Assembly (NCBI GenBank): GCA_026416975.1
Contig: JAOAEC010000008.1
Span: 1-33,289, forward strand
DNA: 33,289 nt
From: Patescibacteria group bacterium
GTDB lineage: Bacteria > Patescibacteriota > Microgenomatia > UBA1406 > GWC2-37-13
Reading direction: 5' to 3'
Both the position numbers and the translations under genes were made by a program. This document shows, piece after piece, positions 1,652 to 27,234 of this stretch. The notes beneath the pieces are model-generated. The model saw only the letters and a program-made list of their open reading frames with translations. It had not been told where the DNA came from and searched no databases. Each line of letters opens with the position of its first letter. Position 1 is the first letter of the stretch.

Positions 1652-1705
1652 TAATTTTTTTGCCCGCAATCGCTGAAGCGATAGCTTCTGCAGGCGGGTA
1701 ACTTT
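1652..1705. repeat. Palindromic mobile-like element, copy 1
   Basis: A GC-rich island in A/T-rich spacer DNA. The core 1659-1698 contains GCCCGCAATCGCTGAAGCG and ends GCAGGCGGG. Inside it GAAGC-GATA-GCTTC can form a hairpin, and CCCGC can pair with GCGGG. It is flanked by TAATTTT on the left and TAACTTT on the right, the same flanking heptamer seen at the other two copies (5799-5853 and 7308-7362). Confidence 0.85.
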
Positions 1706-1936: not shown

Positions 1937-2036
1937 ATCTTACCAAAAAAAACCAAAATTCTCTTATGAACTCTTTAAAAATTTTCTAGCTTTCAATTGC
2001 TATTTTTCCCCGTGATTTAATTTTTACATTTTTAAA
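1937..2036. repeat. Direct repeat, copy 2: relic 3' end of a lost DUF4143 gene
   Basis: Matches 320-424 with few differences. On the minus strand it still encodes FKNVKIKSRGKIAIES followed by a stop at 1986, against FKNVKVKSWEKIAIES in the intact ATPase. It is fused to the 3' end of the P-type ATPase gene, whose frame ends inside it at 2024. The P-ATPase therefore borrows its stop codon from the relic. Confidence 0.8.
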
Positions 2037-4075
2037 AACTCCTTCACCCCTCTGATTCCAACTAACACCAAGCTTGAAAAACCAATCAAAATGAAAAATG
2101 TTTGCCAATTAATTGGTTGGGTTTTGAAGATTTGTTGTAAAAAAGGTTGATGAAGTAATAGTGGTTGGAGAACAAAGGGAAATATAAAAGCGATAATAAA
2201 GATTGGTTTAAATAAAAGTTTATAGTTTGAAGCAATATGGCGGTGAGAAAGAAAAAGATCAATCAGAATAAACTGCTGGATAAAAATAATCGCTGAAAAA
2301 ACAACGGTCGTATTATTTTTTATAAAAAGAGAGAATCCGGCCAAAATCATTGTTAAAAAACCAACGGAAAAGATATAATGAAAATCAACTTTATCTAATA
2401 TCTCCAATGTTTTTCTTGGTGGTTTTTCAATAATTTTTTTATCATCAGGCGCAAAAGCTAAAGAGATTGCTGGTAAGCCGTCTGTGGCGATATTAATATA
2501 TAAAAGTTGAAGGGGAGTGGGGACAGGAAGTTTAAGAAGAAGAGCGCTGATAATGTAAATTACTTCACCAATATTGCATGATAATAAATATTTAATGGCA
2601 TTTTTTATGTGAATAAAAATATTTCTTCCTTGTTCAATAGCGTCAATTAGAGTGGCAAAGTTATCATCAGTGATGATAATATGAGCCGTATCTTTGGCAA
2701 CATCAGTGCCGGTTTTTCCCATGGCCACGCCGCAGTCAGCCTGTTTTAAAGCTAAAGCGTCATTAACGCCATCGCCAGTGACTGCCACTACTTCGCCTAA
2801 TTTTTGATAAAGTTTAACCAATCGATATTTATCTTCCGGAGAAGTGCGGGCAAAAATTTTTACCTTTGGCAAAATTTTTAAAAGTTCTTGATCTGAATAT
2901 TTGTTCAAAATTTTTCCTGACAAAATATCTTCTCCTTCTTGAATAATCCCAGTTTCAATACCAACGGCTTCAGCAGTTAGTTCATTATCGCCGGTAATCA
3001 TCACCACTTTAATTCCGGCTTTTTTTGCTTTTTCAACCGCTTCTTTGACTTCTACTCTGACTGGATCAGCGATCCCAACAAAACCTAAAAAGATCTGATT
3101 TTCTTCTAAATTTTTATCATCGGTTTTTTTATAAGAAAAAGCAATCATTCGAAGACCTTTTTGGGCAAATTTTTGAAACTCTTTCTCGATCTCCTTTCTT
3201 TTAGTTGGCGTTAAAGGTTTAATCTCTTCACCAATCTGAATAAAATTTGAGATTTCCAAAATTGCCTCTGGCGCTCCTTTAGAAAAAACTAAGTTTTGAG
3301 TTTTGACATTTGAGTTTTGAGCTTTGATACTCATCCTTTTTGTCACTGCTGAAAAAGGAATTTCTTCTTCAATCTGCCATTTTTTTCGTTCTTCCTCATA
3401 GTTTATTCCCAAATCTTTGGCCATTAAAAGCAAAGCACCTTCAGTGGTGTCGCCAATGACATCCATATCGCCATGGTCAACTTTAAAAACCAAAGAAGCA
3501 GTTGAGTTAAGACATGAGTTAAGAAGAATTTTTTGAAAAGGATGATTGTTAATGTGAGGAGGAGAAGAGATATCATACTCTTTTTCATCAAGCCAGATTT
3601 TTTTTACCCGCATCTGATTCGTGGTTAAAGTCCCGGTTTTGTCAGTGGCAACTAATGTTAAAGATCCCATTGTTTCAATCGCATTAAGTTTGCGGACAAT
3701 GGTTTTTCTTTTTGCCATCCGCTCAACACCAATTGAAAGAATAATTGTCATTACCGCCGGCAGTCCTTCAGGAACAGCAGCGACCGCTAAAGAAACTGCC
3801 AAAATAAAACTTTCAACCGTGTTTTTTTCTTTAATAAAAGACAAAAGAAAAACAATCAAAGAGGCAATAATTCCGATGATTCCCAATTGTTTAGTAAAAA
3901 CCTCTAATTTTTTTTGAAGAGGCGTTTTTGCTTCTTTAATTGAGGACAAAGTTTTGGCAATCTGACCAAAACGAGTGTTTGAGCCAGTTTTTGTCACCCG
4001 CATAAACCCTCGACCGCGGGAGACAATGGTGCCGGCGTATAATTGATTGTCCATAATTTTAAATTTAAAATTCAA
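2024..4075 (-). CDS. Calcium-type (P2) P-type ATPase, C-terminal three quarters of a split gene
   Basis: 683 residues from the ORF start; translation may begin at the ATG at 4054 (MDNQLYAGTIV). It holds the second half of the actuator domain, then PEGLP in membrane helix M4, the phosphorylation motif DKTGTLTTN, the KGAPE nucleotide-binding motif, a TGD loop, the hinge TGDGVNDALALKQAD, and the last six membrane helices (about 480-680). These are features of PMR1/SERCA-like Ca2+ pumps. The N-terminal part, with M1-M2 and the TGES loop, is a separate ORF (4484-5002); a four-helix-bundle gene lies between them. The hinge has Leu where the family has Pro (VNDAPAL). The C-terminus runs into a relic DUF4143 tail. 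It may work as two coupled polypeptides or be decaying; I cannot decide from sequence. Confidence 0.85.
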   Translation of the reverse strand: MNFKFKIMDNQLYAGTIVSRGRGFMRVTKTGSNTRFGQIAKTLSSIKEAKTPLQKKLEVFTKQLGIIGIIASLIVFLLSFIKEKNTVESFILAVSLAVAAVPEGLPAVMTIILSIGVERMAKRKTIVRKLNAIETMGSLTLVATDKTGTLTTNQMRVKKIWLDEKEYDISSPPHINNHPFQKILLNSCLNSTASLVFKVDHGDMDVIGDTTEGALLLMAKDLGINYEEERKKWQIEEEIPFSAVTKRMSIKAQNSNVKTQNLVFSKGAPEAILEISNFIQIGEEIKPLTPTKRKEIEKEFQKFAQKGLRMIAFSYKKTDDKNLEENQIFLGFVGIADPVRVEVKEAVEKAKKAGIKVVMITGDNELTAEAVGIETGIIQEGEDILSGKILNKYSDQELLKILPKVKIFARTSPEDKYRLVKLYQKLGEVVAVTGDGVNDALALKQADCGVAMGKTGTDVAKDTAHIIITDDNFATLIDAIEQGRNIFIHIKNAIKYLLSCNIGEVIYIISALLLKLPVPTPLQLLYINIATDGLPAISLAFAPDDKKIIEKPPRKTLEILDKVDFHYIFSVGFLTMILAGFSLFIKNNTTVVFSAIIFIQQFILIDLFLSHRHIASNYKLLFKPIFIIAFIFPFVLQPLLLHQPFLQQIFKTQPINWQTFFILIGFSSLVLVGIRGVKEFLKM

Positions 4076-4096
4076 AATGTAAAAATCAAAATGACA
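4067..4096. repeat. Inverted repeat, distal end of the four-helix-bundle insert
   Basis: Plus strand AAAATTC...AAAATGACA. It is the imperfect inverted partner of 4482-4518. The two bracket the inserted gene and could pair in the mRNA. Confidence 0.6.
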
Positions 4097-4116
4097 ATGT
4101 AAAATGTAAAATTTTT

Positions 4117-4494
4117 TTATTTTTTACCTTTTAATTTTAATAAACTACTTGCTAAAATATTAGCGATTTCATTAACTTCTTTTAAAATTTCATTAGATTG
4201 TTTGACTAAATTTTCTTCATTTACAATGTTTTGAATAATATAAATCCAATATTTGGTTTCATTTGCTGATTTTAAAGCTGTTTCAAAATAATGAATATAG
4301 TCTTTAGTTGAACTTGATGATTTTGCCTCAATTACATTAGCTCCAATTGATGTTGTTGATCGAACTAATTGATCTAATATTGAGTAAAAAATAATGTGTT
4401 TTTTTATTGATTCTGAGAATTTAATAACTTTTATTGATAAATTAATCAATCTTTTTATAAATTCCTTTTTGAATTTTTCTCTGTCATTTTGCAT
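4117..4494 (-). CDS. Four-helix-bundle protein of the 23S rRNA intervening-sequence (S23) family
   Basis: 125 residues, about the usual length for this family (PF05635/TIGR02436 type). The diagnostic core is visible: LDQLVRSTTSIGANVIEA (about 42-59), then KDYIHYFETALKSANETKYW (about 65-84), and the rest is predicted helical. Family members are known as ORFs carried by intervening sequences in 23S rRNA and also occur free; their biochemical role is unclear. Here the gene sits inside a P-type ATPase gene. Its ATG (4494) overlaps the stop of the ATPase N-part by 11 nt, and its stop is about 40 nt before the ATPase C-part. The ends of the insert are inverted repeats, as in rRNA intervening sequences. 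A few family members are diversity-element accessory proteins, but no reverse transcriptase is present here. Confidence 0.88.
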   Translation of the reverse strand: MQNDREKFKKEFIKRLINLSIKVIKFSESIKKHIIFYSILDQLVRSTTSIGANVIEAKSSSSTKDYIHYFETALKSANETKYWIYIIQNIVNEENLVKQSNEILKEVNEIANILASSLLKLKGKK

Positions 4495-4518
4495 TTTGAT
4501 TTTTGATTTTTGAATTTT
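4482..4518. repeat. Inverted repeat, proximal end of the four-helix-bundle insert
   Basis: Plus strand TGTCATTTTGCATTTTGATT and onward to TTGAATTTT, the inverted counterpart of 4067-4096. It contains the start codon of the four-helix-bundle gene and encodes the odd last residues (NSKIKNQNAK) of the truncated ATPase N-part. The same AAAATTCAAAATG motif also occurs at 5025-5040, just upstream of the ATPase start. Confidence 0.65.
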
Positions 4519-5002
4519 TAGTTACTGGTAAAGATTCTCCAGTCAATATCGCTTCATTAACCTCTAAATTCATTGCCTGGAGAGCTTCGCCGTCAGCTGG
4601 GATTCTCGTTCCTTCTTCTAAATAAACAATATCACCAGGGACCAAGTATCGGCTATCAATTTCCTGCTCTTTGCCATCGCGGATTACTCGAACTTTAACG
4701 ACCGTCATTTTTTTTAAAGATTTTAAAGATTTTTCTGCCTGATATTCCTGATAAAGGCCAAAAAGAGCATTAAGAATAACAATCGCTAAAATAAAAATAG
4801 CATCTAAGATCTCGCCAATAAAAAAAGAAATTCCTGAAGCGGCAATTAAAAGCAAGATCAAAAAATTGTTAAATTGAGAAATAAAAGACTTTAACAGAGT
4901 AAATTTTTTTTCCTCTTTAATCTCATTAGCGCCATAGGTTTTAAGAAGTTTTTCTACCTGATGGGTAGTTAAAGACAAATTTTTAATTTTTTCCGGGTCC
5001 AT
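4484..5002 (-). CDS. Calcium-type P-type ATPase, N-terminal part of a split gene
   Basis: 172 residues. The N-terminal cation-ATPase domain (THQVEKLLKTYGANEI, about 13-28) is followed by two membrane helices (FLILLLIAASGISFFIGEIL and AIFILAIVILNALFGLYQEY) and the first half of the actuator domain (LVPGDIVYLEEGTRIPADGE). It breaks off just after the dephosphorylation loop TGESLPV. The last ten residues (NSKIKNQNAK) are translated repeat, not ATPase. The cut falls inside the actuator jelly-roll, so a working pump would need the two parts to fold together. The ATG (5002) follows TATAAT (5014-5009) by 6 nt. The intact gene would have been about 850 residues. Confidence 0.85.
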   Translation of the reverse strand: MDPEKIKNLSLTTHQVEKLLKTYGANEIKEEKKFTLLKSFISQFNNFLILLLIAASGISFFIGEILDAIFILAIVILNALFGLYQEYQAEKSLKSLKKMTVVKVRVIRDGKEQEIDSRYLVPGDIVYLEEGTRIPADGEALQAMNLEVNEAILTGESLPVTKNSKIKNQNAK

Positions 5003-5050
5003 AAATTAATTATAAATTAAAAATTCAAAATTCAAAATGAAAAATCTTTT

Positions 5051-5221
5051 CTTCTTCTTGTTAAGAGCAATTTAACAACTAACATCTAACATCTAACGTC
5101 TAACACTTAACATATAACATCAACTATTAATTTCTAATTTTCAATTTTTATTAAATTCAATTTATTAATTATTAATTTATTAACTATTGAATAAAAATTG
5201 ATTTATTAGTTTATTAAAAAT
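5051..5221. repeat. Long direct repeat, copy A (empty-site version)
   Basis: Starts in a CTTCTTCTTG tract, continues through AGAGCAATTTAACAACTAAC, a run of TAACATC-like units, and an A/T-rich tail (ATTGAATAAAAATTGATTTA). Copy B at 7213-7431 has the same parts in the same order. At 5135-5142 copy A reads CTAATTTTCAATT without the palindromic element that copy B carries at that point. Confidence 0.8.
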
Positions 5222-5228
5222 TATATCC

Positions 5229-5257: not shown

Positions 5258-5272
5258 GTACATATATGTACA
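5257..5272. promoter_or_regulatory. Candidate operator: 16-bp perfect palindrome over the abiEi start
   Basis: TGTACATATATGTACA is perfectly self-complementary. It spans the predicted transcription start and the ATG. AbiEi antitoxins of the streptococcal type bind inverted repeats in their own promoter, so this is a good candidate autoregulatory site. A related TGTAC-N7-GTACA palindrome lies at 28250-28266. Confidence 0.55.
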
Positions 5273-5799
5273 AAATAGATAAATTATTAAAGCAGGATGA
5301 GAAACTTTTTCATACCCAGGATTTACGATTAATCTGGGGGATAAGTAACAAGAATACTTTATATACAACTATTAAGCGTTATATTCAAAAAGGCATTCTT
5401 ATTCCTATTCACAAAGGCTTTTATTCAACTTTGCCTTTAGAGAAAGTTAATCCAGTAAGACTTGGAATCGGCTATCTTCATAGGTTTTCTTATTTAAGCG
5501 GCGAGAGTGTTTTGGTTAAAGAGGGAGTGATTTTTCAAAAAGAAAACTATATTACTTTAATGTCTTCAGTTTCCAAAAAATTCACGTTAGGAAAAAACAG
5601 TTTTTTAGTAAGAAAAATGAAGGATGATTTTTTATACAACGACGGCGGAATTGAGGAAAAAGAAGGAATAAAAACAGCCAGTTTAGAGCGGGCCGTGGCC
5701 GATTTGCTTTATTTTAACCCTAATTATTATTTTGATAATTCAAAGAAAATCAACTGGAAGAAAGTAAAGGAAATTAAAAAAATAGTATTTGGTAGTTAA
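5266..5799 (+). CDS. AbiEi-like antitoxin / transcriptional regulator
   Basis: 177 residues. The N-terminal winged helix-turn-helix reads FHTQDLRLIWGISNKNTLYT...RYIQKGILIPIHKGFYS, ending in the GxY turn typical of AbiEi and DUF6088 regulators. A later segment, KTASLERAVADLLYFNPNYYF, matches the conserved A.ERAl.D.l motif of the C-terminal domain. In type IV toxin-antitoxin systems AbiEi represses its own operon and counters the AbiEii nucleotidyltransferase. The partner gene lies directly downstream, separated by a palindromic repeat. The start is fixed by the promoter 8 nt upstream. The pair sits on an island bracketed by long direct repeats. Confidence 0.82.
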   Translation: MYKIDKLLKQDEKLFHTQDLRLIWGISNKNTLYTTIKRYIQKGILIPIHKGFYSTLPLEKVNPVRLGIGYLHRFSYLSGESVLVKEGVIFQKENYITLMSSVSKKFTLGKNSFLVRKMKDDFLYNDGGIEEKEGIKTASLERAVADLLYFNPNYYFDNSKKINWKKVKEIKKIVFGS

Positions 5800-5853
5800 A
5801 AATTAACCGCCTGTAAAAGCTATTGCTTTAAGCGATTGCGGGCAGGAAAATTA
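5799..5853. repeat. Palindromic mobile-like element, copy 3 (inverted orientation)
   Basis: Core 5806-5846, flanked by AAAATTA on both sides (TAATTTT on the other strand). Read on the minus strand it matches the other two copies, but the inner hairpin GAAGC/GCTTC is AAAGC/GCTTT here. That paired change keeps the stem. It lies between the abiEi stop and the abiEii start, inside the transcript. Confidence 0.82.
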
Positions 5854-5866
5854 AAAATTGATAAAT

Positions 5867-6586
5867 ATGCTTTTGCCGAAAAAAGAAGATACTTATCATA
5901 AAATCCAGCTTATCAGACTTTTGACTGAGATTTTAGACAGCGAAATCTCAAAAGATATCTATTTTAAAGGCGGAACTGCTGCTACTATGCTTGGTTTTTT
6001 AGACCGGTTTTCCTTAGATTTAGATTTTGATTTGTCAATTGGCGCCGATAAAAAGAAAATCGATAAAGTTTTGCGGATGATTTTCCAAAAACTTGATTTT
6101 AAAATTGAAAAAAAAGCCGGAAAGACTCTTTTTTATGTTTTAAAATATCCATCAAAGCCGGGTTTAAGAAATAGTTTAAAATTAAGCATTGTTGATAAAG
6201 CCTTAAAGTCTAATCAATATGATAGTTTTTATCTGCCTGATGTTGACCGGTTTGCTATTTGCCAGACCAAAGAGACAATGTTTGCTCATAAGTTAGTAGC
6301 AGCGACTGACCGCTACAAAAAATACCAGACGATTGCCGGTCGAGACTTATACGACATTCATTATTTTTTTCTTCAAGGGTATGAGTTTAATAGTAATGTG
6401 ATTATTGAGCGAACAGGCAAAAAACCAAAAGAGTATTTAAAAGAATTAGCTGATTTTATTGAGAAAAAAGTTAATGACAAAATAATTAATGAAGACTTAA
6501 GCTTTTTACTGCCTTATGAGAGATTTAAAACGATAAGAAAAGTTTTAAAAAGGGAAGTGGTGATGATGTTGAGGGGAAGAATATAA
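5867..6586 (+). CDS. AbiEii/AbiGii-family nucleotidyltransferase toxin
   Basis: About 239 residues from the ATG at 5867; the ORF track's TTG at 5858 is less likely. The nucleotidyltransferase core is plain: YFKGGTAATMLGFLDRFSLD followed by LDFDL, that is GG(T/S) and two metal-binding aspartates. A later QTKETMFAHKLVAATDR and AGRDLYDIHYF are typical of the AbiEii (PF08843) family. AbiEii enzymes are type IV toxins; a relative (MenT) adds nucleotides to tRNA acceptor ends. Here the target is unknown. The gene follows abiEi in the same direction and probably shares its promoter; the palindromic repeat in the gap may affect message processing. Confidence 0.87.
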   Translation: MLLPKKEDTYHKIQLIRLLTEILDSEISKDIYFKGGTAATMLGFLDRFSLDLDFDLSIGADKKKIDKVLRMIFQKLDFKIEKKAGKTLFYVLKYPSKPGLRNSLKLSIVDKALKSNQYDSFYLPDVDRFAICQTKETMFAHKLVAATDRYKKYQTIAGRDLYDIHYFFLQGYEFNSNVIIERTGKKPKEYLKELADFIEKKVNDKIINEDLSFLLPYERFKTIRKVLKREVVMMLRGRI

Positions 6587-7198: not shown

Positions 7199-7230
7199 AT
7201 TTTACTTCTTCTTCTTCTTCTTCTTGTCAA
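7199..7230 (-). promoter_or_regulatory. Triplet-spacer promoter (20-nt AAG spacer)
   Basis: Minus strand TTGACA (7230-7225), a 20-nt spacer made only of AGA/AAG triplets, TAAAAT (7204-7199), then 9 nt to the ATG at 7189. The spacer is three bases longer than the 17-nt optimum reached by the copy at 30442-30470. Confidence 0.6.
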
Positions 7231-7431
7231 GAGCAATTTAACAACTAATATCTAACGTCTAACACTTAACATATAACTTATAACATATAACATCAACTAT
7301 TAATTTCTAATTTTCCCTGCCCGTAATCGCTGAAGCGATAGCTTCTGCAGGCGGGTAATTTTCAATTTCTATTAAATTATTAATTTATTAATTATTGAAT
7401 AAAAATTGATTTATTAATTTATTAAAAATTA
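7213..7431. repeat. Long direct repeat, copy B (carries the palindromic element)
   Basis: Same order of parts as 5051-5221, with an extra ATATAACTTATAAC unit and the palindromic element inserted at 7315-7355. It follows the TTC/GAA tract. With copy A it brackets the abiEi-abiEii-unknown gene cluster. Confidence 0.8.
7308..7362. repeat. Palindromic mobile-like element, copy 2, with 7-bp flanking duplication
   Basis: Core 7315-7355 begins CCCTGCCCG and ends GCAGGCGGG. It is bounded on both sides by TAATTTT (7308-7314 and 7356-7362). In the otherwise matching copy A at 5135-5142 a single TAATTTT is followed directly by CAATTT. That is the pattern of an insertion with a 7-bp target duplication. 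Confidence 0.85.
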
Positions 7432-20188: not shown

Positions 20189-21325
20189 ATGACCACTCAG
20201 GAAAAATTTAATCTTATTAAACAAGTTGGGGAAGAGATTATTGAGGAGAAAGAATTAATTAGTTTATTGGAAAGTCGAGAAGAATTAATCGCCTATGATG
20301 GGATTGAACCATCAGGCCAGCTTCATATCGCTCAAGGACTGTTGCGGACGATTTATATCAATAAGTTGATAAAAGCCGGTATTAAATTTAAGATGCTTTT
20401 GGCCGACTGGCACGCGATGGCAAACAATAAGATGGGTGGTGATTTGAAAAAAATTCAAATAGTTGGCCGTTATTTTATTGAGATTTGGAAAGCTTGCGGA
20501 ATGGATCTGTCAAAGGTTGATTTTATCTGGACATCAGATTTAGCCAAAGATCCAAAATATTGGGAGTTGGTGATTAAAATTGGCCGTTCTAATGCTCTTC
20601 GGCGATTTATCCGTTGTGCTGAGATTATGGGAAGAGAAGAGAGTTTAGATAAGTTAACTGGCGCAATGATTATTTACTCTTGTATGCAGACAGCTGATAT
20701 CTTTTATTTAGGAGCAAAAATCTGCCAGCTTGGTATGGATCAGCGAAAAGTTAATATGCTGGCACGAGAAATTGGTCCGCAGCTTGGTCTACCATTTGGC
20801 GGATGGAAACCAGTTGTAGTCTCGCACCATATGTTAAGGGGACTACAAAAATCTGAAATTCTAAATTCCAAATCCCAAACAAATTCAAATGATAAAAATT
20901 CAAAAATTGAAAAAACAATTGCCTTAAAGATGTCAAAATCAAATCCAGACAGTGCTATTTTTATGACTGATACTTATGAGGATATTAAGCGAAAAATCAA
21001 TAAAGCTTATTGTCCTGAAGGAGTAGTTGAGGATAATCCGATTTTAGAGTATTACAAATATATTGTATTTGAGAGTTTAGCGAGTTTACGAGTTAAGAAG
21101 TTGTGCATTAAACGTCCGCAAAAATTTGGCGGCGATGTCACCTTGGACTCGTTTCAGGATTTAGAAAAAAAATTTATTAACAAAGAAATTCATCCGGCGG
21201 ATTTGAAAGTTAATTTAATTGAATATCTTAATCAGTTAATTGAGCCAGTCAGACGCCATTTTGAAGAAAATCAAGAAGCCAAAGCTCTTCTTGAAAAAGT
21301 CAAGGCTTATCAAGTTACCAGATAG
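20189..21325 (+). CDS. tyrS: Tyrosyl-tRNA synthetase, archaeal/eukaryal (plant-like) type
   Basis: 378 residues. Class I signature HIAQG at 46-50 and KMSKS at 247-251. The segments CQLGMDQRKVNMLARE, VVSHHMLRGLQ, NPDSAIFMTD and KINKAYCPEGVVEDNPILEY match the cytosolic TyrRS of plants and protists and their archaeal relatives. The usual bacterial enzyme has a C-terminal S4 domain, which is missing here. It charges tRNA-Tyr. About 20 residues just before KMSKS (about 223-242, EILNSKSQTNSNDKNSK) are a translated dispersed repeat placed in a surface loop next to the catalytic lid. The start is fixed by TGT-TATAAT 7 nt upstream and the family N-terminus. It ends with TAG, 154 bp before the RRM gene. 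Confidence 0.92.
   Translation: MTTQEKFNLIKQVGEEIIEEKELISLLESREELIAYDGIEPSGQLHIAQGLLRTIYINKLIKAGIKFKMLLADWHAMANNKMGGDLKKIQIVGRYFIEIWKACGMDLSKVDFIWTSDLAKDPKYWELVIKIGRSNALRRFIRCAEIMGREESLDKLTGAMIIYSCMQTADIFYLGAKICQLGMDQRKVNMLAREIGPQLGLPFGGWKPVVVSHHMLRGLQKSEILNSKSQTNSNDKNSKIEKTIALKMSKSNPDSAIFMTDTYEDIKRKINKAYCPEGVVEDNPILEYYKYIVFESLASLRVKKLCIKRPQKFGGDVTLDSFQDLEKKFINKEIHPADLKVNLIEYLNQLIEPVRRHFEENQEAKALLEKVKAYQVTR
20855..20912. repeat. Dispersed A/T repeat translated inside TyrRS
   Basis: AAATTCTAAATTCCAAATCC and on to AAATTCAAATGATAAAAATT. It has the same word order as the repeats in LeuRS and between genes, length about 58 bp, and keeps the reading frame open. Confidence 0.75.
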
Positions 21326-24216: not shown

Positions 24217-24456
24217 TTAATTATTTCTTGCACTATATTCTATTCTTTTAGGACATGTTGCTTGTTGATATGTTTCTTTACAAAGGCACATACGAGGATG
24301 TTTTGAGTTAGCTAACCCACAAAAACCTACTAAAAGATCTCCATAAATTTTTTTATACTTTTCAGCAAGTATTTCAAATGCTCCATTTTCTCCATATCTT
24401 TCAACTGTTTCTTCTGGCGTTATTAAATGTACACATCCTTCACATCCATTTTTCAT
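24217..24456 (-). CDS. Small Cys-rich hypothetical protein
   Basis: 79 residues from the ATG at 24456. The ORF track's TTG at 24489 falls in the promoter and is rejected. Six cysteines lie in GCEGC, GFCGL, MCLCKE and TCPKR, a pattern fit for one or two metal sites. No family is recognised. The gene is divergent from LeuRS and shares its -35 region. Its promoter is of the AAG-triplet type (TTGACA, then AGAAGAAGAAG). It ends 9 nt from the end of the nucleotidyltransferase gene, which points toward it. Confidence 0.6.
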   Translation of the reverse strand: MKNGCEGCVHLITPEETVERYGENGAFEILAEKYKKIYGDLLVGFCGLANSKHPRMCLCKETYQQATCPKRIEYSARNN

Positions 24457-24461
24457 ATTAT

Positions 24462-24511
24462 AGGATATTATACTTCTTCTTCTTGTCAAAAGAAAGTTTT
24501 TATTTTAAAAT
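24462..24511. promoter_or_regulatory. Divergent promoter region with overlapping -35 boxes (LeuRS / Cys-rich protein)
   Basis: Plus strand: TTGTCA (24483-24488), 17-nt spacer, TAAAAT (24506-24511), 8 nt to the LeuRS ATG at 24520. Minus strand: TTGACA (24489-24484), AAG triplets for 11 nt, TATAAT (24472-24467); TATCCT at 16-nt spacing is an alternative -10. The two -35 boxes use the same heptamer TTGTCAA, so the two promoters should compete. Confidence 0.6.
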
Positions 24512-24519
24512 TGAATGAT

Positions 24520-27234
24520 ATGATTGACAAATATCAACCGCAGGAATTTGAAAAAAAATGGGTGGAGATTTGGGAGAAAGAAAAAACTTATCAAACTCGA
24601 AAACTCGTTAACTTGTCAACTCAAAAACCTAAACAATATGTTTTATCAATGTTTCCCTATCTGTCTGGTGTTGGTCTTCATGTTGGCCATGTGCGAATTT
24701 ACACTGGCACTGATGTTTTAGCCCGTTTTTTTAGGATGAATGGTTATCCAGTTCTTCATCCGATGGGCTGGGATGCTTTTGGACTACCAGCTGAAAACGC
24801 AGCCATAAAAGCTAAAAAAAATCCAATGGATATGGTGCCGGAGAATATCAAAAATTTTAAGCGCCAGATGAAGATGCTTGGATTTTCTTATGATTGGGAA
24901 AAAGAATTTTCGACAACCGACCCAGAATATTATCGATGGACGCAGTGGCTTTTTATCCAGTTTTTTAAAATGGGTCTTTTGTATAAAAAAGAAATACCAG
25001 TTTATTACTGCCCATCTTGTAAAACTGGTTTGGCAGAAGAGGAAGTTTTGCCAGACGGCACTCATGAACGCTGTGGCAAACCAATCACCAGAAAAACTCT
25101 TCCTCAATGGCTTTTTAAGATTACTTCTTATGCTGATAAACTTTTGGAAGATCTAAAAGATTTAGACTGGCCTGAAGGAATTTTGGAGATGCAAAAAAAC
25201 TGGATTGGAAAAAGCGAAGGAACGGAAATTAAATTCGAAATTCTAAATCCTAAATCCGAAACAAATTCAAAATCAAAAATTAAAAATTCTAAACAATATA
25301 TTCGGGTTTTTACAACTAGGGCTGATACTTTATTTGGAGTAACTGCTTTGGTGGTGGCGCCGGAGCATTGGTTAATTGATGAAATCCTAAATCCTAAATC
25401 CGAAATCCTAAACAAATCCCAAATCTCAAATTCTAAAATAGAAGAAATTAAAAAATATGTTGAAGAAGCAAAAAGAAAGCTAGATTTGGCAAGAACTGAT
25501 TTAGCAAAAGAAAAAACCGGGGTTGATACTGGACTAAAAGCTGTTCATCCTTTAACTGAAGAAAAAATTCCCATTTGGGTAGCTGATTATGTGATTGGTT
25601 GGTATGGCGAAGGAGCAGTGATGGTGGTGCCTGGACATGATGAACGAGATTATGAGTTTGCGAAAAAATTTAATTTACCAATAAAACAAGTAATAATAAA
25701 CGCAAAACGCAATCCGCCAACTGGCGGACAAAACTCAAAACTAAATCAAAACTTAAGCAAAGCTTTTACTGATTATGGAATTTTGATAAATTCTGGTGAG
25801 TTTTCAGGATTGACTTCAAAAGAAGCCATAGAAAAAATAACAGAAAAATTACAATCGTTAAATTTAGGTCAAAAAAAAATAACTTATAAACTTCGCGATT
25901 GGATTTTTTCAAGACAACGCTATTGGGGTGAGCCGATACCGATGATTTTTTGCGCAAATTGCGCAAAAAATCAAGCTCAAAATTCAAAGTTCAAAGTTCA
26001 AAATAAAATGTATGGTTGGTTTCCTGTTTCAGAAAATGAGCTACCTTTAAAACTCCCTTATATCAAATCATACGAACCAACTGAGACCGGCGAGTCACCT
26101 CTGGCAAAAATTTCTGAGTTTGTTAATACTACCTGTCCAAACTGCGGTGGACCGGCCAAAAGAGAGACAGACACAATGCCAAACTGGGCTGGCTCCTGTT
26201 GGTACTTTTTAGCTTTTGCTTTTTCAAAAGCTTTAAATTCTAAATCCAAAATTCCAAATTCTAAACAATCTCAAAATTCTAATGACAAAAATTCAAAAAG
26301 TTTTGAAAATTTAAATTTTAAAAATTCGGATTTATTTAGGATTTGGAATTTAGAGTTTAGTGCTTCATTAAAACATTGGCTTCCGGTTGACTGGTATTTG
26401 GGAGGAGCAGAACATGCAGTTTTACATCTTTTGTATTCCCGCTTTTGGGTGAAAGCTTTGTATGATTTGGGGCTACTTGATTTTAAAGAACCGTTTTTAA
26501 GGTTAAGAAATGTTGGTATGGTTTTGGCTGAGGATCATCGGAAAATGAGCAAAAGTTTTGGCAATGTCATTAATCCTGATGATGTAGTTGCTGAGTATGG
26601 CGCTGATGCTTTGCGTCTTTATGAGATGTTTATGGCACCATTTTCATCTGAGATTGCCTGGTCAACAAAAGCTTTGCAGGGTTGTTATCGGTTTTTAAAA
26701 AGAGTCTGGGAGACATATCAAAAGTTAGAAGTTAAAAATCAAAAGTTAAAAGTTGAAGAAGATAAAGAGTTAGTGGCGAAATTAAACAAAACTATTAAAA
26801 AAGTGACTGAGGATATTGGACAGATTAAATTTAATACTGCTATTGCTTCAATGATGGAATTTTTAAATGAATATGAAAAAAAACCGCAAGAATTATCAAA
26901 AGAAAACGCAAAAAAGTTTTTGCAGATTTTAGCGCCGTTTGCGCCGTTTTTAACTGAGGAGATCTGGAGAGAAGTTTTTGGAGAAAAAGAGTCGATTCAT
27001 TTATCAAAATGGCCTCAGGCTGAAGAGGTAGAGGAGAGCGAGATTATTATTCCGGTGCAGGTGAATGGAAAATTAAGGGGTACAATAAAAGTCAAAAGTC
27101 AAAAGTCAAAAGTCAAAAGTTATATTGAAGCGGAGGTTCTTAAACAAGAAAAAATAAAAAAATATCTTCAAGGAAAAAAATACAAGATGATTTATGTTGA
27201 AGGAAAGGTGGTGAATTTGGTGGTTGGAAGTTAA
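24520..27234 (+). CDS. leuS: Leucyl-tRNA synthetase with multiple repeat-encoded insertions
   Basis: 904 residues from the ATG at 24520; the ORF track start at 24427 lies upstream of the promoter. HIGH-like HVGH at 54-57 and KMSKS near 675. Zinc-binding-like pairs CPSCKTG, CANCAK and CPNCGG. The editing domain has TTRADTLFGVTALVVAPEHW and MVVPGHDERDYEFA with the conserved Asp. The core has SRQRYWGEPIPM, WAGSCWYFLAF, LPVDWYLGGAEHAVLHLL, and the C-terminal domain ends VEGKVVNLVVG. It charges tRNA-Leu and edits mischarged amino acids. At least six low-complexity inserts interrupt it. They are made of NSK/NPKSE words encoded by dispersed DNA repeats and account for about 120 residues beyond a typical bacterial chain. 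All keep the frame and lie between conserved blocks. The promoter is 8 nt upstream. Confidence 0.95.
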   Translation: MIDKYQPQEFEKKWVEIWEKEKTYQTRKLVNLSTQKPKQYVLSMFPYLSGVGLHVGHVRIYTGTDVLARFFRMNGYPVLHPMGWDAFGLPAENAAIKAKKNPMDMVPENIKNFKRQMKMLGFSYDWEKEFSTTDPEYYRWTQWLFIQFFKMGLLYKKEIPVYYCPSCKTGLAEEEVLPDGTHERCGKPITRKTLPQWLFKITSYADKLLEDLKDLDWPEGILEMQKNWIGKSEGTEIKFEILNPKSETNSKSKIKNSKQYIRVFTTRADTLFGVTALVVAPEHWLIDEILNPKSEILNKSQISNSKIEEIKKYVEEAKRKLDLARTDLAKEKTGVDTGLKAVHPLTEEKIPIWVADYVIGWYGEGAVMVVPGHDERDYEFAKKFNLPIKQVIINAKRNPPTGGQNSKLNQNLSKAFTDYGILINSGEFSGLTSKEAIEKITEKLQSLNLGQKKITYKLRDWIFSRQRYWGEPIPMIFCANCAKNQAQNSKFKVQNKMYGWFPVSENELPLKLPYIKSYEPTETGESPLAKISEFVNTTCPNCGGPAKRETDTMPNWAGSCWYFLAFAFSKALNSKSKIPNSKQSQNSNDKNSKSFENLNFKNSDLFRIWNLEFSASLKHWLPVDWYLGGAEHAVLHLLYSRFWVKALYDLGLLDFKEPFLRLRNVGMVLAEDHRKMSKSFGNVINPDDVVAEYGADALRLYEMFMAPFSSEIAWSTKALQGCYRFLKRVWETYQKLEVKNQKLKVEEDKELVAKLNKTIKKVTEDIGQIKFNTAIASMMEFLNEYEKKPQELSKENAKKFLQILAPFAPFLTEEIWREVFGEKESIHLSKWPQAEEVEESEIIIPVQVNGKLRGTIKVKSQKSKVKSYIEAEVLKQEKIKKYLQGKKYKMIYVEGKVVNLVVGS
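25236..25297. repeat. LeuRS insert 1 (dispersed A/T repeat)
   Basis: GAAATTCTAAATCCTAAATC and on to AAAAATTCTAAACAAT. Encodes ILNPKSETNSKSKIKNSKQ between EIKFE and YIRVFTT, at the start of the editing domain. Confidence 0.75.
25381..25440. repeat. LeuRS insert 2 (dispersed A/T repeat)
   Basis: GAAATCCTAAATCCTAAATC and on to CAAATTCTAAAATA. Encodes EILNPKSEILNKSQISNSK inside the editing domain, after HWLID. Confidence 0.75.
25699..25760. repeat. LeuRS insert 3 (short palindrome plus A/T repeat)
   Basis: Contains TCCGCCA-AC-TGGCGGA (25713-25728), then AAACTCAAAACTAAATC. Encodes NAKRNPPTGGQNSKLNQN, not expected in LeuRS. Confidence 0.7.
25944..26010. repeat. LeuRS insert 4 (29-bp palindrome plus A/T repeat)
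   Basis: GATTTTTTGCGCAA, one base, then its exact inverse (25944-25972), followed by a repeated AATTCAAAGTTCAAAGTTC tract. The palindrome partly codes the CANC metal motif, so its left half may be native. Confidence 0.6.
26234..26358. repeat. LeuRS insert 5 (long imperfect palindrome)
   Basis: Begins AATTCTAAATCCAAAATTCC and ends GGATTTGGAATTTAGAG, so the two ends are inverted copies; the centre AAATTTAAATTT is also self-complementary. About 125 bp in frame, the longest and most complete copy of this repeat. It encodes about 42 residues of N, S, K and F between WYFLAF and LKHWLPVDWY. Confidence 0.75.
26716..26757. repeat. LeuRS insert 6 (AAAAGTTA repeat)
   Basis: CAAAAGTTAGAAGTTAAAAA then TCAAAAGTTAAAAGTTGAAG, encoding QKLEVKNQKLKVEE. 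A sister tract of four AAAAGTC units lies at 27090-27121 near the C-terminus. Confidence 0.6.

Follow-up and report, generated by a model that had tools for sequence, protein, structure and literature searches.

The 33,289-nucleotide stretch of Patescibacteria DNA analysed here (the window) contains three copies of a short palindromic repeat, and one of two related intergenic segments carries a copy that the other lacks. Is this repeat a mobile element and, if so, did it duplicate its target when it entered? The original prediction proposed a mobile palindromic element with a 41-nt core, a filled and an empty site in the same window, and a 7-bp target duplication; all the sequence features that it described are present. 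The boundaries of the element were set by insertions for which the empty site could be identified. The palindromic repeat is real, and the element is 40 nt long rather than 41 nt, reading CCTGCCCG..GCAGGCGGG in copy B (Table 1). Given a 40-nt element, the direct repeat around copy B is also present, as the 8-nt TAATTTTC and not as a 7-nt repeat. Pairwise alignment was used to compare segments A and B (the MAFFT alignment was poor); TAATTTTC occurs twice around the element in B and once in A. The filled and the empty site are supported.

Table 1. Coordinates of the element copies, their flanks and the A+T-rich arrays. Positions refer to the window unless a contig or locus is given.
Feature	Position	Strand	Remarks
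Element copy 1	1659-1698	+	First bases degenerate (TTTGCCCGC); flanks TAATTTT/TAACTTT
Element copy 3	5806-5846	-	Between abiEi-like and abiEii genes; has AAAGC/GCTTT paired change
Element copy B	7316-7355	+	40 nt, CCTGCCCGTAATCGCTGAAGCGATAGCTTCTGCAGGCGGG; boundaries from tRNA and REP empty sites
Fourth copy, 40 nt	Contig C12, L024:6014-6053		Source genome
36-nt relative	C38:850-885		Source genome
Left TAATTTTC	7308-7315	+	Read as array unit, not target duplication
Right TAATTTTC	7356-7363	+	Array unit
Segment A, paralogue of segment B without the element	5049-5223	+	One TAATTTTC only, at 5135-5142
Segment B, duplicated intergenic DNA with element	7215-7431	+	Other array-unit indels relative to A
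Heptad-array repeats in LeuRS-like/TrpRS-like genes	20849-20904, 25231-25286, 25382-25437, 26242-26297		

The copies outside the window were identified by sequence search of the contigs of the source assembly (672 kb, 78% complete). At the gathering score, Rfam yielded two tRNAs only in the window and no match for the element. Between segments A and B lie an unknown ORF and an AbiE-like toxin-antitoxin pair (5266-6586); this module might have come with the duplication.

The element belongs to a family. Within the same class, the pattern CCTGCCCGC-N2..32-GCAGGCGGG matched 133 of 374 genomes and a mirrored control pattern matched none, which argues that the repeat is not a product of chance. The exact 30-mer core is present in 13 stretches of other Patescibacteria and was seen in Collier-, Roizman-, Levy-, Shapiro- and Berkelbacteria; a scan of IMG/VR gave no match for it. 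From about 80 fetched loci, 133 elements were extracted (149 later), and 119 independent insertion sites were analysed. The elements are mostly 36-42 nt long, with a variable core between ends CCTGCCCGC and GCAGGCGGG, the constancy of which follows from selection by ends, so that variants with other ends are under-represented. Genomes carry 1-18 copies, some of them arranged head to tail (L057, L059, L064, and L129). The paralogous filled and empty pairs, together with the 119 sites, bear out the proposed mobility.

Covariation was examined in 16 distinct 40-nt variants and revealed two mutually exclusive nested folds, both maintained by paired changes. In fold 1 (CCCGC/GCGGG plus GAAGC/GCTTC), pairing is 98.8% and 8 cells are doubly changed, compared with 2.2 after shuffling; the corresponding values for fold 2 (CCTGC/GCAGG plus ATCGC/GCGAT) are 95.6% and 13 compared with 5.2. 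The change from GAAGC/GCTTC to AAAGC/GCTTT, noticed at first in a single copy, is real and recurs elsewhere, and the covariation of both folds confirms and extends it. The fold is stable (z about -2.6), and one of the folds leaves four unpaired bases 5' of the stem.

Many insertion sites lie in DNA that can itself form hairpins. Fragments of tRNA genes are entered (i) in the D-loop, between GCTCAATGG and TAGAGC, in either orientation (L058, L066, and L113), with the D-loop of tRNA-Asn entered in both orientations (L058 and L113); and (ii) in the T-loop, between GGTTC and GATTCC in L099 and L108, and also in L149 and L079. In L117, a RAYT gene is bordered by its own REP, the right-hand copy of which is interrupted exactly by the element between GGGGACG and TCTGGGAAGGCTAAATAGC, and the partner REP is intact. 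In two 23S rRNA genes (L224 and L222), the element occupies a model hairpin or its base, and in L193 and L209 a second palindrome is nested within the loop of the first. Stems of at least 4 bp surround 40% of insertion sites compared with 23% of controls, with the peak at zero shift. The preference for hairpin loops is moderate and is driven partly by the tRNA fragments.

We rejected the possibility of insertion into functional tRNA genes, since aragorn found no complete tRNA across any of the joined sites. Insertions into tRNA sequence were found only in fragments beside intact tRNA genes, a pattern that is expected if insertions into functional tRNA genes are lethal. ORFs of serine recombinases also occur near elements and tRNA remnants (L058, L080, L101, and L113). 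Another palindrome, CCCGCCTACGCCGAGCTAAGCTCGGCTACAGCGGGC, is repeated three times in tandem, seemingly in frame within coding sequence (L262:660-850).

Clustering of the proteins encoded around the elements revealed one family that stands out, a small GIY-YIG nuclease; in 8 independent loci, its domain starts at a distance of 15-38 bp from the element. Relatives of this nuclease were found at 30 loci (L186-L215), about 26 of which share a common layout: an upstream tRNA-promoter-like sequence, a 5' tRNA remnant, the GIY-YIG gene and, within tens of bases, an intact tRNA with the same 5' sequence. A palindrome lies within the tRNA remnant, as expected of a passenger of the cassette, in about 24 of 25 readable cases, a count made partly by eye because a script misplaced short remnants (e.g., L196 and L202). 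The palindrome varies in subfamily, orientation, and position, and was for this reason rejected as a fixed left border of the cassette; the variation points to many independent insertions. In genome G004, at least 12 equal-scoring GIY-YIG genes lie head to tail with a 357-bp period (contig C2:242-4399).

The mobiliser could be the nuclease of this cassette, which would cut hairpin loops or tRNA-like DNA, the palindrome being inserted at the cut during repair. Proximity and the repeatedly interrupted remnants are consistent with this tentative reading, and so is co-occurrence: the element is present in 14 of 31 genomes with GIY-YIG as the only predictor, compared with 4 of 64 with neither predictor. 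In a joint model of 289 genomes, uncorrected for phylogeny, GIY-YIG co-occurs with the element more strongly than the Y1 transposases do (odds ratio 6.8 [3.7-13.6] compared with 2.2 [1.15-4.3]), the former value being due in part to element copies inside cassettes. However, positions vary even within one tRNA type, which speaks against a fixed cut site, and the element-rich genome G025 (16 copies) has no close GIY-YIG. Moreover, the cassette of the source genome, at tRNA-Asn (L244, contig C33, 1350-1900), has a remnant with a different, 16-nt palindrome (TCCGCCAGTTGGCGGA). Selection for interruption of the remnant could yield the same picture, so that either the nuclease drives insertion or the interruption is selected. 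A broader and equally tentative proposal is that the cassettes target the 5' part of tRNA genes by homing and rebuild the tRNA downstream, that the remnant is repeatedly interrupted, and that palindrome and nuclease form one system in which insertion would be driven by cutting or by a need to disable the remnant; solo palindromes across the genome, among them the window copies and those of 23S rRNA loops, would then be by-products.

Slightly less probable, and in our view rather doubtful, is that the element is a REP moved in trans by a RAYT or another Y1 (HUH) transposase acting on single-stranded hairpins. Zero target duplication (see below), a hairpin substrate, and the four unpaired bases 5' of the stem fit Y1 chemistry. 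Y1_Tnp occurs in 247 of the 374 genomes and in 107 of the 133 with the element (odds ratio 3.0, uncorrected for phylogeny), but the ratio drops to 2.2 once GIY-YIG is included, and no Y1 match was found in the element-rich G134 (12 copies) and G097 (99% complete, 5 copies). The element lacks a GTAG tag and is not the cognate REP of a RAYT: none of 23 RAYT loci has it on both sides, and several RAYT genes carry other palindromes of their own (L117, L255, L259, and L260). The original prediction had suggested looking for a REP-type transposase that acts in trans; two Y1/RAYT-like genes of the source genome are at most candidates, and the complete one (contig C5) apparently has different palindromes of its own on its borders. 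As mobilisers, a GIY-YIG nuclease acting with repair and a Y1 enzyme in trans are candidates of similar weight.

For the window alone, segment A may have lost the element by precise deletion instead of B having gained it, since a single pair cannot give the direction of change. This is unlikely: at other loci, tRNA remnants or REPs are what the element interrupts, and their uninterrupted form is ancestral, so that insertion is the general direction.

The proposed target duplication is not supported. Paralogous empty sites within the same locus were sought systematically. Of those recovered, 20 join without any duplication and 2 with a duplication of 1 bp; duplications of 2-7 bp were absent, and only the window gave one of 8 bp. 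The window scores among the 20 zero-duplication loci too, and one or two others of these lie in A+T arrays. A permuted control of this search gave 0. At the GIY-YIG/tRNA loci, every well-matched interrupted remnant joins without duplication (18 loci). Across the 119 independent sites, duplications of 2-6 bp occur at chance level, and exact duplications of 7-8 bp were observed 7 times compared with about 0.14 expected by permutation. All but one of the latter lie inside visible A+T arrays with a period of 7 or 8, and their length tracks the local period (8 in TTTGGATC arrays and 7 in TAATTTG arrays). One duplication departs from the array reading: CAAAAGA at L153:1501-1542 is an exact 7-bp flanking repeat, the only one with no visible array around it. 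The flanks in the window have a period of 7, with an autocorrelation of 0.48-0.73 at lag 7 compared with 0.26 for a coding control, and segments A and B differ by further array-unit indels; the two TAATTTTC copies are accordingly best explained as units of the array. The element inserts without target duplication, and the duplication seen at first is an effect of the arrays.

In view of these results, a reading along the lines of the original prediction, in which a DDE-type transposase moves a MITE and duplicates 7-8 bp of its target, is very improbable. With its empty sites, imperfect inverted ends, and absence of an ORF, the element does have the features of a mobile, non-autonomous element with terminal inverted repeats. 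The match between A and B is longest when an 8-bp duplication is assumed, and the excess of 7-8 bp duplications, with the L153 site, would also fit. Nevertheless, the fixed-length direct duplication of a MITE is contradicted by the empty sites, by the tRNA, REP, and 23S contexts, and by duplication lengths that follow the array period.

We can dismiss as least probable of all a non-mobile origin as regulatory or terminator hairpins conserved by selection, which would suit the stable fold and the intergenic position of the window copies but not the clean filled and empty pairs, the sites inside tRNA remnants, REPs, and rRNA, the site entered in both orientations, or the head-to-tail copies.

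A+T-rich heptad arrays also occur in frame within LeuRS-like and TrpRS-like genes of the window (24427-27234 and 20189-21325), where they give runs such as ILNPKSEILNKSQISNSK, and a glycosyltransferase-like gene on contig C12 (L024:4238-5191) has a similar run. A P-type ATPase gene (2024-5002) is apparently split into ORFs 2024-4075 and 4484-5002 on the minus strand; a gene of the 23S_rRNA_IVP family (4117-4494) lies between them, with inverted A+T arrays at its borders (4062-4113 and 4472-4523). Upstream of an AAA_14/DUF4143 gene (370-1521) lies a second copy of that gene's own 3' end, with approximately 90% identity (311-423 and 1929-2039).

Taken together, we consider it probable that this Patescibacteria repeat is a mobile, non-autonomous palindrome that inserts as an exact unit, without target duplication, into hairpin-prone targets, and that the TAATTTTC repeats are array units. 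The palindrome, usually 36-42 bp with ends CCTGCCCGC and GCAGGCGGG and a core with two exclusive folds, enters in either orientation. Its preferred targets would be hairpin-capable DNA, namely D- and T-loops of tRNA fragments, 23S rRNA expansions, the REP of a RAYT, and other palindromes, and A+T arrays of 7-8 bp period are further landing sites. In the window, an intergenic segment would have been duplicated and one copy would then have gained the element between array units. The substrate may be a single-stranded hairpin intermediate, inserted by a trans-acting GIY-YIG nuclease plus repair or by a Y1 (HUH) transposase.

Several known systems resemble parts of this picture. Mitochondrial double-hairpin elements and GC clusters are mobile hairpins of A+T-rich small genomes; they belong to organelle hosts and are presumably unrelated in sequence. 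The GTAG REPs associated with RAYTs are imperfect palindromes of 20-45 nt, dispersed in genomes, with sub-families that show compensated stem changes, and are regarded as non-autonomous elements that Y1 transposases mobilise (PMC3733652, PMC2817692). The element is likewise a short imperfect palindrome with compensated stems, but it has CCTGCCCGC and GCAGGCGGG at its ends in place of a terminal GTAG, the adjoining bases are not conserved, it flanks no examined RAYT on both sides (0 of 23), the RAYTs here carry other REPs, and its copy number is low (1-18 per genome). To our knowledge, neither GTAG nor CGTC REPs are known for preferring hairpin loops, tRNA remnants, or rRNA expansions. Rickettsia palindromic elements are known to insert into genes. 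Like CGTC REPs, they are short palindromes with no dedicated transposase (PMC3733652). The element differs from both in its ends, which lack CGTC, in its sequence, in its host phylum, and in favouring tRNA remnants and rRNA loops. It is a REP-like palindrome that has neither a GTAG nor a CGTC tag and no cognate RAYT. For Patescibacteria, it represents a widespread mobile palindrome whose boundaries are exact and whose preferred targets are hairpin loops, tRNA remnants, and rRNA expansions.

The rRNA genes of CPR bacteria carry short unexplained insertions that contain neither an ORF nor an intron and lie at the top or base of stem-loops (cut-off 100 bp), in the description of which palindromes or hairpin repeats are not mentioned (PMC11270868). 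Two 23S genes here (L224 and L222) carry the element in such places, which makes it a candidate source for some of these insertions.

The link to the GIY-YIG tRNA cassette is the most interesting part of these results and was not anticipated. A literature search, mostly without subscription journals and without preprints, found no account of the palindrome family or of the cassette. SegB of phage T4 is a GIY-YIG homing endonuclease near tRNA genes (PMC13096335, PMC2988022). The cassette shares with it a GIY-YIG gene associated with tRNA genes; here, however, the nuclease lies between a rebuilt tRNA and a 5' tRNA remnant that bears a palindrome. A cassette with repeated hairpin insertion makes the movement of REP-like elements without a dedicated transposase directly testable.
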